From assembly GCA_017514785.1 (NCBI GenBank), contig JAFWIO010000019.1:45103-109102 (forward strand): a stretch of DNA of 64,000 nt, read 5' to 3'. Each line of letters begins with the position of its first letter. Within the stretch, counting starts at the first letter, position 1. The position numbers and the translations under genes were made by a program. Shown piece by piece: positions 39,523-46,974 of this stretch. The notes below the pieces were generated by a model. The model searched no databases, was not told the DNA's origin, and saw only the letters and a program-made list of their open reading frames with translations. This DNA is from Eubacterium sp. Its GTDB lineage: Bacteria; Bacillota; Clostridia; Lachnospirales; Lachnospiraceae.

Positions 39523-41511
39523 ATGGAGAATTTTAAAAAGTACAAAAGACAGTATTTTATGCCACCAGAAGCTACTTACGATTGGGTAAAGAAAGAGTAT
39601 ATCGAAGAAGCTCCTATTTGGTGTAGTGTTGATTTGCGCGATGGTAACCAGGCGCTTATCGAGCCAATGAGTCTTGATGAAAAGTTGGAATTTTTCCAGT
39701 TACTCGTAGATATAGGTTTCAAGGAAATAGAAGTGGGATTCCCAGCAGCTTCTCAGACAGAGTATGACTTTATGCGCGCACTTATTGAGCGCGACATGAT
39801 CCCTGATGATGTGACAGTACAAGTTTTGACGCAGGCTAGAGAGCATATCATCAAGAAAACTTTTGAGGCTGTAAAGGGTGCGAAGCATGCAGTAATCCAT
39901 CTTTACAATTCAACATCTGTTGCTCAAAGAGAGCAGGTGTTTAAGAAGAGTAAAGAAGAGATTAAGCAGATTGCCATAGATGGTGCTGAACTTCTAAACA
40001 AGTTAGCTTCTGAAGTAGATGGTAATTTCTCATTTGAGTATTCACCAGAGAGTTTCCCTGGCACAGAAGTGGACTACGCATTGGAAGTATGTAATGCGGT
40101 ACTTGATGTTTGGAAACCAAAGAAAGAAAACAAAGTAATCATTAACATTCCAGCTACAGTCGAGAATGCTATGCCACATGTGTTTGCTACACAAGTTGAG
40201 TATATGCATAAAAACTTAAAGTACAGGGATGCAGTTACTATTTCAGTTCACCCTCACAACGACAGAGGTTGTGGTGTGGCTACTGCAGAACTTTCAGTAC
40301 TTGCTGGAGCAGATAGAATAGAGGGAACACTTTTCGGAAACGGAGAGCGTACAGGTAACGTAGATATCGTGACACTTGCTATGAACATGTTCTCACACGG
40401 CGTAGATCCAAAGTTAGACTTTAGCGATATGCCTAAAATCTGTGAACTATACGAGCGTGTTACTCGCATGCAGGTTGGCCCTCGTCAGCCATACGCAGGT
40501 GATTTGGTGTTTACAGCATTCTCAGGTTCTCACCAGGATGCCATCGCCAAAGGAATGGCATGCCGTGATGCAGATCCAGAAGGCAAATGGAATGTCCCTT
40601 ATCTTCCTATCGACCCAGTGGACGTTGGAAGAACTTACGACTCAGACGTTATTAGAATTAACTCTCAGTCTGGTAAGGGCGGCGTAAGCTACGTTCTAAA
40701 ACAAAACTATGGCCTATCTATTCCACAGGAGATGCGCGAAGAAGTTGGTTATATGATTAAGGACGTTTCCGACAAAGAACACGCTGAACTATCCCCAGAG
40801 ACTATCTATCGAATCTTTGAGGATAAGTATGTTAACAACACATCTGTATTCGCGGTTCCTGAAGTTCACTTCAAACAGACTAGAGGAATCACTTCAGATG
40901 TTACAATGGTTTACAAAGATAAGAAGAGAGTTATCAAGAGTACTGGTAACGGAAGATTGGATGCGGTCAGTAACGCGTTCAAATCATTCTTTGATATAAG
41001 TTATGAGCTTTCATTCTACGAGGAGCATTCACTTTCTCGTGGGTCATCGTCAAAGGCCGTTTCATACGTGGGAATCAGTTGCAACGGAACAATGTTCTGG
41101 GGAGTTGGTATTGATGAAGATATTATCAAATCATCAATCAACGCATTAACTTCAGCTGTTAACCAGTATGTGGCCACATTGAAGGATAAAGATGACCAGG
41201 ATGAGAGACTAACAGAAATCTTAAACTACATTAATACAAATTATTTGTCGGTGACACTTGATGAGTTGGCAGAGGAGTTTGAACTTACAAAGACATATCT
41301 TTCAAAATATATTAAAGATAAATCGGGTAAGACATTTGGCGATATCGTAACTAACGTTCGAATGAAGAAAGCGAGAGCGATGCTAAAAAGTGGAAACAAA
41401 AACGTGGAAACTATTGCGCACGAAGTTGGATATCAGAATGTCGAAAACTTTACTAGAACTTTCAAGAAGAAATACGGCATGACACCAGTTCAGTTTAGGA
41501 ATTCTAAGTAG
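39523..41511 (+). CDS. leuA: 2-isopropylmalate synthase fused to an AraC-type DNA-binding domain
   Basis: 662 residues. Residues 1-440 are the long-form synthase that condenses acetyl-CoA with 2-oxoisovalerate, first step of leucine synthesis: [18 protein letters not shown], and the metal HxH in SVHPHNDRG (His243, His245). Residues about 441-555 are the LeuA regulatory domain that binds leucine. Residues about 562-662 are a complete AraC/XylS domain with two helix-turn-helices: [26 protein letters not shown] and [32 protein letters not shown]. Other LeuA proteins stop near residue 560. No stop, frameshift or internal Shine-Dalgarno with ATG separates the parts. A dual enzyme and leucine-sensing regulator is inferred. 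Ribosome site AGAGG. Confidence 0.93.
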
Positions 41512-43203: not shown

Positions 43204-44037
43204 CTATTTTATTAAATCTACCAAAAATGGTATTTCGTTTTCGAAGTTTACTCCGTAATCCACAGAGTCTGGATCATTGTAAGTATTCAAAATACTTGCC
43301 CTAGTAAAATCTGCCGCAATCTTTAATGCCTCATAAACTGACTTATCATTCATCAGTGCACCAGTGAATGTACTAGCAAACACATCCCCAGTACCGTGAG
43401 ATTTCATATCTACCTTTTCATTTCCGTAGCTATAAAACTCTTTTTTCTCAGTATCATATCCCATAAAACCAAATTTGCCATCTTCCAACTCCACACCCGT
43501 TATAACTGCATGCTTTGGACCAAACTTAGCAAGTTTAAGTAGCAAGTCTTTAACCTCATCTACACTTGCATCCTCGCCAGGATACTTAACACCAAGCATT
43601 AGAGATGCCTCAGAAATATTTGGAAGTATAATATCAGCTTTCCCACATAACTTTGACATTTCTTTGGCGAAGACTTCGTCAAAACCAGCATAAAGTTGTC
43701 CGTTATCTGCCATAGCTGGATCCATAATAATAACGTTGTCGTCTCTTCTAAAGGTGTCGAAGTAATCCGCTACTATATCTATTTGTCTTTTTGAACCAAG
43801 ATATCCAGTGTAGATAGCATCAAACTTAAAGTCTTCCTTTTTCCAGTGCTCCTTGATAGGTTCCATATCATCCGTCAAATCTCTGAATGTGAAATCGCTA
43901 AACTGCGTGTGCGTTGAAAGCACAGCAGTAGGAACGATAGAACACTCCAATCCCATCGCAGAAATGATAGGAAGAGCCACAGTAAGTGAACATTTTCCTA
44001 CACAAGATATGTCTTGAATACTCATTACTCGCTTCAT
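43204..44037 (-). CDS. pdxY: Pyridoxal/pyridoxamine kinase (PdxY type)
   Basis: 277 residues. Phosphorylates vitamin B6 vitamers to PLP or PMP. Seen: N-terminal MSIQDISCVGKCSLTVALPIISAMG, TAVLSTHTQF, YTGYLGS, MDPAMADNGQLY, and the catalytic HGTGDVFASTFTGAL with the anion-hole Gly and catalytic Asp. PdxK and PdxY are hard to separate by sequence; the specificity is left open. It is transcribed divergently from a PdxR-type regulator, which supports a role in PLP salvage. Ribosome site AGGAGAA on the minus strand. Confidence 0.9.
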   Translation of the reverse strand: MKRVMSIQDISCVGKCSLTVALPIISAMGLECSIVPTAVLSTHTQFSDFTFRDLTDDMEPIKEHWKKEDFKFDAIYTGYLGSKRQIDIVADYFDTFRRDDNVIIMDPAMADNGQLYAGFDEVFAKEMSKLCGKADIILPNISEASLMLGVKYPGEDASVDEVKDLLLKLAKFGPKHAVITGVELEDGKFGFMGYDTEKKEFYSYGNEKVDMKSHGTGDVFASTFTGALMNDKSVYEALKIAADFTRASILNTYNDPDSVDYGVNFENEIPFLVDLIK

Positions 44038-44078: not shown

Positions 44079-44141
44079 TTGAAATTATAATACTTTAGTG
44101 GTATTATGAGAATAACCAAAAACAGAAAAAATAATAATACC
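44079..44141. promoter_or_regulatory. Divergent pdxY / pdxR-cca promoters with inverted repeat
   Basis: Plus strand: TTGAAA (44079-44084), 17 bases, TATTAT (44102-44107). Minus strand: TATAAT (44089-44084), with TTCTCA as a weak -35 at 44112-44107. GGTATTAT (44100-44107) is repeated inverted as ATAATACC (44134-44141). The first copy lies in the + -10 box and between the minus -35 and -10. TAGTGGTATTA resembles the AGTGG core reported for PdxR sites. Confidence 0.6.
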
Positions 44142-44157
44142 AGAAAAGGGACAGATT

Positions 44158-46974
44158 ATGCTAACTTATGATTTCTCATCTAGGGGAAAAACCCCTATGT
44201 ATGAGTATTTGTACAACTGCATAAGAGAAGATATATTGTCGGGGAATTTGAAAGCCGACCAGAAGTTGCCATCCAAACGAGAGATGGCTTCTAATCATGG
44301 AATCAGCATTATCACTGTTCAAAATGCATACGAGCAGTTGATGGTGGAGGGCTACATCTATTCGCAGGAGAAGAAGGGCTACTTTGTGAGCAAAGTGGAC
44401 AGCGGATTCAAGGTAGAGGAACCTAAAAAGTCTTCCGCGCCAAAGAAAACCGCGACTAACAAGAAAGAAGAAAAGCCATTAGTTGACTTTTCATCTAACC
44501 ACTTGCTCTACGATAGTTTTCCGTTTAATACTTGGTCAAAGATTATGAGAAAAACTATCACTGACAGTGAGCCAGATTTCCTTGAGAGTCCAAACCACGC
44601 AGGAGTGGAAGAGTTAAGGAACGCTATTGCAAATCACCTACAGGACTTTCGTGGCATGCGAGTAAATCCTGACAACATAGTGGTGGGCGCAGGAATGGAA
44701 TACCTTTACGGTCTTATTGTCCAACTTCTTGGCAAAAACCATATGATCGCGATAGAAGATCCAGGCCACAAAAAAGTGGGAAGCGTCTACGAGAGCAACG
44801 GCGTCAAATGCATCCCAATCCCAGTGCGAGATGATGGTATGGATTTAGATGCACTAAAGGCGTCCAAGGCCAAGGTAGTTCACCTATCGCCTTCACACCA
44901 TTTCCCAACTGGATGTGTAATGCCAATTAATAATAGAACTAAGCTACTTGAGATAGTAGACCACGGTTTTGTAATAGAGGATGATTACGACAGCGAATTC
45001 AGATTTAAGGGTCGTCCGCTTCCAACACTTCAAAGCCTAAACCCAGACAAAGTTATATACCTAAACACATTTTCAAAAACTTTGGCGCCATCTATTCGTA
45101 TCGCTTACATGGTGCTTCCAGATGTTTTGATGAACGTGTTTAACGAGAAACTTTCATTCTATTCAAGCACAGTATCAAGCTTCGACCAGTATACTTTGGC
45201 GAAGTTTATTTCTGACGGCTACTATTCAAGACATATAAATAGAATGCGCAACTTCTACAAAGGTTATAGAAAAACCATAATAGACGAACTTAAACAATCT
45301 CCAATGAGTGACAGGATTATAATTCGCGAGGCTACGTCGGGACTTCACTTTATCCTAGAACTAGATTTAAAAGTGGATGATAAAAAGTTTGTAAAAGCTT
45401 TGAGCGATCGAGGCATTAAACTTAAAAAAGTTACTGACTATTGTTACCTCAAAAATGATACTTATAAACATCAGTTCATTATCAACTACTCAGCTGTGCA
45501 GGAAGACAAACTAAAAAAAGCCTTCCAGATAATGAGCGAGGAGTTAGATAAATACGGAAAGAAGACTTCTAAGAAAGTTGATAAAAAACAACCAGTAAAG
45601 ACCACAAAGAAAAAGCAAACAGCAAAGAAACTGGCAAATAAAATAAAGATAGAACTTCCAAAAGAAGTTAAAAATATCATATCCATCCTCGACAAAGAAG
45701 GCTTCGAGGCCTTTGCCGTGGGCGGATGCGTGAGAGACTCTATCCTAAATAGAAACCCGGATGATTGGGACATCACCACATCAGCCAAACCTGAGGATGT
45801 GAAGAAAATCTTTAACCGCACGTTTGATACAGGTATTGAGCACGGAACAGTGACGGTAAGAATGGGCGGCCAGAGCTTTGAGGTTACAACATACAGAATT
45901 GAGGGCGAGTACAAGGATTCGAGACACCCAGAGTCTGTCGAGTTCACATCAGACCTTAAGGAAGATTTGATGAGACGTGACTTTACGATAAATGCTATGG
46001 CCTACAACGACCAGGTTGGCTTGGTAGATGAGTTCGGCGGCATTAAAGATCTAGAAAACAAAATCATAAAGTGCGTTGGAAATCCAACAGAACGCTTTGG
46101 CGAGGACGCACTTAGAATCCTAAGGGCAGTTCGCTTTGCAGCGCAGCTTGGTTTTGACATCGACAAAGAAACTGAAGATGCGATGAAGGAACTTGCACCA
46201 AGTTTGCGAAACATCAGTGCTGAGAGAATTCAGACGGAACTTGAAAAACTAATTATGTCTGATAATCCAGGCATGTTTATAAAAGTGTATGAACTTGGAA
46301 TTACAAGAGTGATACTTCCTGAGTTTGATAGGCTTATGGATCAGGAACAAATTTCCCTTTATCACGACTACAACGTAGGACTTCATACAATCAAAGTTTT
46401 GGAGAACACTAGAAAAGATAAGATACTTAGATGGACTGCGCTTCTTCACGACATTACAAAACCGGACGAGGAATCGATAGATGAAGATGGACAACATCAT
46501 TTCAAAAACCACCCAGATTCAGGTGCAGAGATGGCAAAGTCCATTATGAAACGCCTTAAGATGGACAATAAAACCATTAGGTCCGTCTACCACGTCATAC
46601 TTCATCACGATGACAGACCATATTCGCTAGATCCAGAAAGCATCAGACGAAATGTGCACGAAATAGGAAAAGACTATTACGGTTATTTTCTAGCATTTTC
46701 ATATGCCGATTATATGGGCAAAAGTGAGTACGCGAGAAAAGTGGGATTCCCTATGCTTAAGTACTGCAAAGAGCAGTTTGAGGAAATCAAAAAGAAGGGA
46801 TATGCCACAAGTATAAAGGAACTAAAAATCACCGGCAAAGACCTAATAGATTTAGGTGCAGAACCTGGAGAAAAGATAGGTGAAATATTAGAAGAATTAC
46901 TAGATATGGTCCTAACAGATCCAGAACTAAACACCTTTGAGAAACTCGTAAAAATAGCCGAAAAAATGCTATAA
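44158..46974 (+). CDS. MocR/PdxR-type regulator fused to CCA-adding tRNA nucleotidyltransferase
   Basis: 938 residues. Residues 1-80 are a GntR winged helix (PMYEYLYNCIREDILSGNLKADQKLPSKREMA). Residues about 115-465 are a fold-type I aminotransferase domain with the PLP lysine Lys307 in TFSKTLAPSIRIAY, the MocR architecture. A lysine-rich linker (about 466-500) leads to a class II CCA-adding enzyme: GGCVRD at 522-527, the metal DDWD at 535-538, LMRRDFTINAMAYN and an HD phosphohydrolase-like domain (LLHDITKP, His764-Asp765). Each part alone would be a complete protein. No internal ATG with a ribosome site precedes the nucleotidyltransferase, so one polypeptide is expected. The divergent pdxY supports the PdxR role. 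Confidence 0.92.
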   Translation: MLTYDFSSRGKTPMYEYLYNCIREDILSGNLKADQKLPSKREMASNHGISIITVQNAYEQLMVEGYIYSQEKKGYFVSKVDSGFKVEEPKKSSAPKKTATNKKEEKPLVDFSSNHLLYDSFPFNTWSKIMRKTITDSEPDFLESPNHAGVEELRNAIANHLQDFRGMRVNPDNIVVGAGMEYLYGLIVQLLGKNHMIAIEDPGHKKVGSVYESNGVKCIPIPVRDDGMDLDALKASKAKVVHLSPSHHFPTGCVMPINNRTKLLEIVDHGFVIEDDYDSEFRFKGRPLPTLQSLNPDKVIYLNTFSKTLAPSIRIAYMVLPDVLMNVFNEKLSFYSSTVSSFDQYTLAKFISDGYYSRHINRMRNFYKGYRKTIIDELKQSPMSDRIIIREATSGLHFILELDLKVDDKKFVKALSDRGIKLKKVTDYCYLKNDTYKHQFIINYSAVQEDKLKKAFQIMSEELDKYGKKTSKKVDKKQPVKTTKKKQTAKKLANKIKIELPKEVKNIISILDKEGFEAFAVGGCVRDSILNRNPDDWDITTSAKPEDVKKIFNRTFDTGIEHGTVTVRMGGQSFEVTTYRIEGEYKDSRHPESVEFTSDLKEDLMRRDFTINAMAYNDQVGLVDEFGGIKDLENKIIKCVGNPTERFGEDALRILRAVRFAAQLGFDIDKETEDAMKELAPSLRNISAERIQTELEKLIMSDNPGMFIKVYELGITRVILPEFDRLMDQEQISLYHDYNVGLHTIKVLENTRKDKILRWTALLHDITKPDEESIDEDGQHHFKNHPDSGAEMAKSIMKRLKMDNKTIRSVYHVILHHDDRPYSLDPESIRRNVHEIGKDYYGYFLAFSYADYMGKSEYARKVGFPMLKYCKEQFEEIKKKGYATSIKELKITGKDLIDLGAEPGEKIGEILEELLDMVLTDPELNTFEKLVKIAEKML

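Follow-up and report, generated by a model that had tools for sequence, protein, structure and literature searches.

The window that we analysed, a stretch of 64,000 nucleotides, contains on its plus strand an open reading frame (44158-46974, ATG to TAA, 938 codons) that begins as a regulator of the MocR type and ends as a tRNA nucleotidyltransferase. Such a frame raises the question of whether two genes have really become one, how this could have happened and what the joining would mean for vitamin B6 control and for tRNA maturation. A sequence-only reading of the locus had described one uninterrupted 938-residue frame, made of a PdxR-type MocR half and a class II CCA-adding half with the key residues of both intact. 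The window translation bears out the frame, in which we found zero internal stops; the identity of the two halves is supported by Pfam and NCBIfam equivalog scores, and motif inspection and alignments confirm the key residues. The features of the locus are given in Table 1.

Table 1. Features of the pdxK and pdxR-cca locus, in window positions.
Feature	Position	Strand	Content or basis
pdxK, pyridoxamine/pyridoxal kinase, expected PdxR target	43204..44037	-	NF005491, 300.4 bits (cut-off 231)
Promoter-like TTGAAA-17-TATTAT for pdxR-cca	44079..44107	+	Consensus match; -10 within the left operator box
Promoter-like TTCTCA-17-TATAAT for pdxK	44084..44112	-	Consensus match; overlaps the pdxR-cca promoter
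Inferred PdxR operator, GGTATTAT-N26-ATAATACC	44100..44141	+	Conservation and position
PdxR half, residues 1-460	44158..45537	+	GntR winged helix and fold-type-I aminotransferase-like PLP domain
Linker, residues 461-494	45538..45639	+	Lysine-rich in the window; pLDDT <50 at 468-494
Class II CCA-adding half, residues 495-938 and stop	45640..46974	+	GGCVRD/DWD, RRD, motif D EDALR, HD

In the N-terminal half, the GntR winged helix (PF00392, residues 15-77, 45.2 bits against a cut-off of 27) and the Aminotran_1_2 domain (PF00155, residues 107-426) were both matched above the curated Pfam cut-offs. Judged by equivalog score, this half is a PdxR rather than another MocR regulator, as residues 13-459 matched the NCBIfam PdxR equivalog NF052282 with 527 bits (cut-off 320) and the GabR equivalog reached 386 bits, below its cut-off of 600. 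The lysine K307 (45076-45078) lies in the motif TFSKT, which GabR and Bacillus clausii PdxR share; the lysines of this motif align in all three, and we take K307 to be the PLP lysine. The aminotransferase domain was modelled poorly by AlphaFold, with large parts below a pLDDT of 50, because the supplied alignment covers this domain with just eight sequences, those of the window and of seven close fused relatives; we therefore assign its fold from sequence matches.

The C-terminal half matched four Pfam families above their curated cut-offs (PolyA_pol, residues 519-637; PolyA_pol_RNAbd, 665-725; HD, 746-821; tRNA_NucTran2_2, 791-932) as well as the NCBIfam equivalog for CCA tRNA nucleotidyltransferase (residues 503-935, 316.9 bits against a cut-off of 290). 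It carries the motifs GGCVRD (522-527), DWD (536-538), RRD (606-608), EDALR (649-653) and HD (764-765), and residues G522, G523, R526, D527, D536, D538, E649, D650 and R653 are invariant in an alignment of 26 sequences. According to the available part of PMC11784652, EDxxR is shared by A-adding and CCA-adding enzymes. The AlphaFold model of this half has pLDDT values mostly above 90 and a TM-score of 0.81 to 1miv, by target length, over 447 alignment columns.

Ten other genomes of the genus likewise read through the junction in one open frame, from which we conclude that the pdxR-cca fusion is real and not an assembly accident; the frame of one of these (G010) ends with its contig at residue 773, beyond the junction. 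No missed stop was found near residues 465-500. Codons 460-520 of the window hold no in-frame ATG, GTG or TTG, with a CTG at 492, and the old cca start codon is gone. We considered and rejected a hidden internal start from which the window could make a CCA protein of its own: the one candidate ahead of the catalytic motif, M459, has a weak AAAG upstream, and the next, GTG521 and GTG525, lie at or within that motif.

The same architecture occurs in 11 of the 23 genomes of this genus, whose members we describe as Lachnospira-like gut bacteria. In all 23 genomes pdxK diverges from pdxR and cca lies downstream of pdxR, counting a pdxK match that is split over two frames next to a contig end (G015) and a cca truncated by a contig start (G016). 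The broken pdxK of G015 (locus L045) reflects a frameshift or a sequencing error. The genomes differ in how pdxR and cca meet: they are fused in G000, G001, G005, G008, G010, G011, G015, G017, G018, G020 and G021 (n = 11), abut in one frame in G003, G006, G007 and G009 (n = 4) and are otherwise separate in G002, G004, G012, G013, G014, G016, G019 and G022 (n = 8). In the abutting genomes the pdxR TAG or TAA is followed directly by the cca ATG, with GGAGG a few bases upstream of that ATG. Spacing in the separate genomes ranges from an overlap (G013) to about 75 bases, assuming that the cca start is shared with relatives.

The fused genomes also differ among themselves. At the position of the stop, G005 (L036) and G011 (L041) have GCA or TCA (Ala or Ser) and retain the GGAGG and ATG of cca; as this ribosome site and start persist, both genomes may make a free CCA enzyme in addition to the fusion. 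G008 has kept the cca ATG and lost the ribosome site. The window's clade has lost the old ATG, except for G017, where an ATG with AAGGA upstream at -21 lies near the old start and is a possible internal start. Assemblies of the window's fused group measure 1.1-1.7 Mb versus 1.8-2.9 Mb for the separate-gene relatives, a difference that is confounded by kinship and completeness.

We placed these states on a tree of four concatenated proteins, in which G008 and G016 form long branches. The fused genomes fall into two groups, G008 with the window's clade and G005 with G011 beside the four abutting genomes. The fused label needs two changes on this tree, and a single fused clade was rejected (p-AU 0.0136) in a quick-search AU test that was run after the first tree had been seen. 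From the tree, we propose that the fusion probably arose twice; one old fusion with later re-separation is less likely, though counts of changes cannot distinguish gain from loss. Ratios of dN/dS, several of them resting on saturated dS values above 1, were 0.031-0.061 for PdxR and 0.024-0.075 for CCA across eight fused pairs (six of which share G000), and 0.030-0.055 for PdxR (five pairs) and 0.038-0.072 for CCA (the four pairs giving a value) among unfused relatives. By this measure both halves are under strong constraint, and in unfused relatives the constraint is similar.

The linker follows a different course. Residues 465-495 of the window contain 14 lysines in 31 residues, and AlphaFold gave pLDDT values below 50 throughout 468-494. 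A lysine-rich linker is present in six genomes of the window's clade (G000, G001, G010, G015, G020 and G021); the linkers of G017 and G018 are shorter and of different sequence, and those of G008, G005 and G011 are short and not lysine-rich. These five genomes rule out the lysine-rich linker as a general defining element of the fusion. They also weaken the earlier suggestion that the basic linker could bind tRNA or DNA, and variation of the linker among fused relatives disfavours a required nucleic-acid-binding role.

To place the fusion in its regulatory setting, we looked at the 120 bases between pdxK and pdxR, which contain the two boxes of the inferred operator. Allowing up to two mismatches, this pair of boxes has a single match in the window, against 0.06 expected. 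It is exact in 12 of the 23 genomes, nine fused (G008 and every member of the window's clade) and three separate (G012, G016 and G022), and has one mismatch in one box in G002, G007 and G019, so that both boxes are present at a spacing of 33-34 bp in 15 of 23. The pair was not found in the other eight genomes, fused G005 and G011 included, where at most one box came within one mismatch. Both promoter-like sites of the intergenic region belong to a set of four in the stretch, against 0.9 expected, and are defined by consensus match only.

As the inferred operator overlaps the predicted pdxR-cca promoter, we propose, by analogy with studied regulators, that the CCA enzyme is probably under PdxR autorepression. 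The parts of PMC5320631 available describe other apo-PdxRs as repressing pdxR and MocR regulators as often being autorepressors, and those of PMC11619246 report that Streptococcus pyogenes PdxR activates pdxKU when B6 is absent and represses its own gene about 1.5-fold, regardless of B6. Because autorepression in S. pyogenes is this small and independent of B6, B6 need not change the level of the CCA enzyme. The sequence-only reading had seen in the fusion a link between vitamin B6, transcription and tRNA maturation; the part of it that our analysis supports is a probable shared control of expression, through an operator on a predicted promoter, and this control would also apply to those separate-gene relatives that carry the operator. 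The de novo PLP synthase family PF01680 scored above its cut-off in one of the 23 genomes (G019), with nine others giving weak matches below it. Most bacteria of the genus thus probably rely on salvage of B6, unless another de novo route is open to them, and such reliance fits a PdxR that adjoins pdxK.

We next asked whether the cell would have another enzyme for finishing tRNAs. When we checked for a further cca gene, each of the 23 genus genomes, which are mostly incomplete drafts, gave exactly one PF01743 match, and this was the cca gene or the cca half of the fusion. The window's genome is itself a draft of 1.48 Mb in 85 contigs and 90.7% complete, so its assembly may lack a second cca, although the 22 relatives also show one each. 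None of the 24 tRNA genes detected in the window's genome is followed by an encoded CCA. The same holds for 68 distinct tRNA genes that we examined at 30 loci in G019, G005, G020 and G008, four genomes with 164 tRNA matches in all. With a lone PF01743 protein and tRNA genes that lack CCA, the genomes offer no further member of this family that could carry out CC addition, and on these grounds the fused protein probably finishes every tRNA in the cell.

The reading that best accounts for these observations, to which we give a probability of roughly 0.72, is a stop-loss fusion of two working proteins that share expression control and in which each half keeps its ancestral job. Under this reading, adjacent and co-directional pdxR and cca genes would have been joined by loss of the intervening stop codon. 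The PdxR half would sense PLP and regulate pdxK and its own promoter, the CCA half would be the cell's only CCA-adding enzyme, and the two would be coupled through expression, with one promoter overlapped by the PdxR operator, one start site and a 1:1 ratio. The route could have led from separate genes to a stop touching the ATG in the same frame, then to a sense codon in place of the stop with the cca ribosome site still present (compare G005 and G011), then to loss of the ribosome site (compare G008) and finally to loss of the start codon and growth of the linker (the window's clade). As the tree sets the two fused groups apart, these stages represent different lineages rather than one line of descent. 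The stop-loss reading draws on the frame, the synteny, the two fused groups, the constraint, the one PF01743 protein per genome and the tRNA genes without CCA; it further supposes that the operator functions, that both halves are active, that the chain escapes cleavage and that the steps came in this order.

Other explanations make the joining either less or more consequential. That a real stop was lost from the frame through sequencing or assembly error is extremely improbable: a draft in 85 contigs would leave room for such an artefact, but the junction is open in ten other genomes, and in the window no in-frame start is left at the old cca start. Another explanation is that one chain is translated and then cut within an exposed, lysine-rich linker, yielding two working proteins and reducing the fusion to a means of joint expression. 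The low model confidence and high lysine content of the window's linker would suit a cut there, as would the way in which linker sequence and length vary among relatives while both domains are constrained. By eye, however, the linkers have no common cleavage motif, and three genomes (G008, G005 and G011) are fused through short linkers that are not lysine-rich; we consider cleavage unlikely.

Somewhat more doubtful is a functional coupling in which PLP or DNA bound to the PdxR half alters CCA addition, or tRNA load alters repression, so that B6 would set tRNA maturation. The separation of two fused groups on the tree, the strong constraint on both halves and the loss of the internal start in most of the window's clade are what such coupling might produce, but the linkers are variable, unfused relatives show about the same constraint and the stop-loss route requires no such benefit. 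The full-length AlphaFold model (mean pLDDT 69.3) is uninformative on the interface between the halves. We hold in similarly low regard a B6-gated tRNA maturation, in which PLP and operator DNA on the PdxR half would change how active the tethered, sole CCA enzyme is or where it is located, and tRNA would feed back on transcription of pdxK and pdxR-cca. If it were true, one molecule would read both cofactor status and translation capacity, and the two fused groups would represent convergent selection for this link.

We also searched for the fusion beyond the genus. A stop-free match spanning both halves was absent outside the genus from the matches listed for 98 genomes (75 of them from outside), from the best matches listed for 395 genomes of the family, and from those listed for 390 genomes of the class, of which 48 had a match at E values up to 1e-120; the family and class samples overlap, and a distant fusion that was split into two matches or fell below the threshold would escape. 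The one spanning match, in G188, was rejected as a fusion because stops separate its aminotransferase-like gene from its cca gene; that these two were nevertheless linked, at 39% identity, shows that neighbouring genes are within reach of the joining procedure. No paper title on a MocR-CCA fusion appeared among the literature matches listed, and a paper covering both MocR and tRNA nucleotidyltransferase lists them in separate table rows, in the part available to us (PMC6167468). We regard the fusion as a new architecture of two known families, and as moderately surprising.

Other joined frames were noted along the way. A second enzyme-regulator fusion lies in the window at 39523-41511 (+), where a 2-isopropylmalate synthase (catalytic and LeuA_dimer domains) is fused to a C-terminal AraC-type helix-turn-helix. 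In a search of 60 genomes, LeuA-AraC matches reached the AraC end in 22 of the 23 genus genomes (G001 partial) and in G023, G027, G029 and G031, and ended at residues 501-560 in 14 other genomes (E up to 1e-150); no paper on this fusion was found by title among the literature matches listed. At two loci from two other genera (L109, 914-3475, minus strand, G045; L110, 693-3383, minus strand, G371), the cca frame continues, by eye, into downstream lipoprotein-like sequence with a signal-peptide-like stretch mid-protein, another apparent read-together with cca.

The consequence of a stop-loss fusion is that a transcription factor comes in a 1:1 ratio with the only PF01743 nucleotidyltransferase found, an enzyme on which every tRNA probably depends. 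Regulator and enzyme are then equally abundant and are probably expressed from a single autorepressed promoter. As the genus shows separate, abutting, fused with a start and fused without a start, it provides a natural series for the fixation of a fusion and for the independence of a regulator from its passengers.

Each half has a close counterpart among known proteins, and the joining has partial parallels. The CCA-adding enzyme of Thermotoga maritima is, like the protein described here, a natural fusion to extra domains; in the accessible portion of PMC8208693, these are Nrn and CBS domains, reported to be dispensable for CCA addition; they are unrelated to transcription or PLP. With B. clausii PdxR (7zla, 7zn5 and 7zpa), residues 13-459 of the fusion have in common a winged helix followed by an aminotransferase-like domain, and the locus resembles PdxR systems in its divergent B6 salvage gene and its inverted-repeat boxes in the shared intergenic region. 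The B. clausii chain totals 478 residues, whereas the fusion has about 480 additional C-terminal residues that contain an RNA-processing enzyme. The CCA half agrees with the Bacillus stearothermophilus CCA enzyme (1miv) in motifs, fold and domain order, but its N-terminus runs on into a transcription factor and has no ATG start of its own. BirA, PutA and NadR are bifunctional proteins that combine DNA-binding regulation and enzyme activity in one chain, with an enzyme that works within the regulated pathway. In the fusion, the enzyme would act on tRNA and the regulated pathway would be that of B6, so that the two differ.
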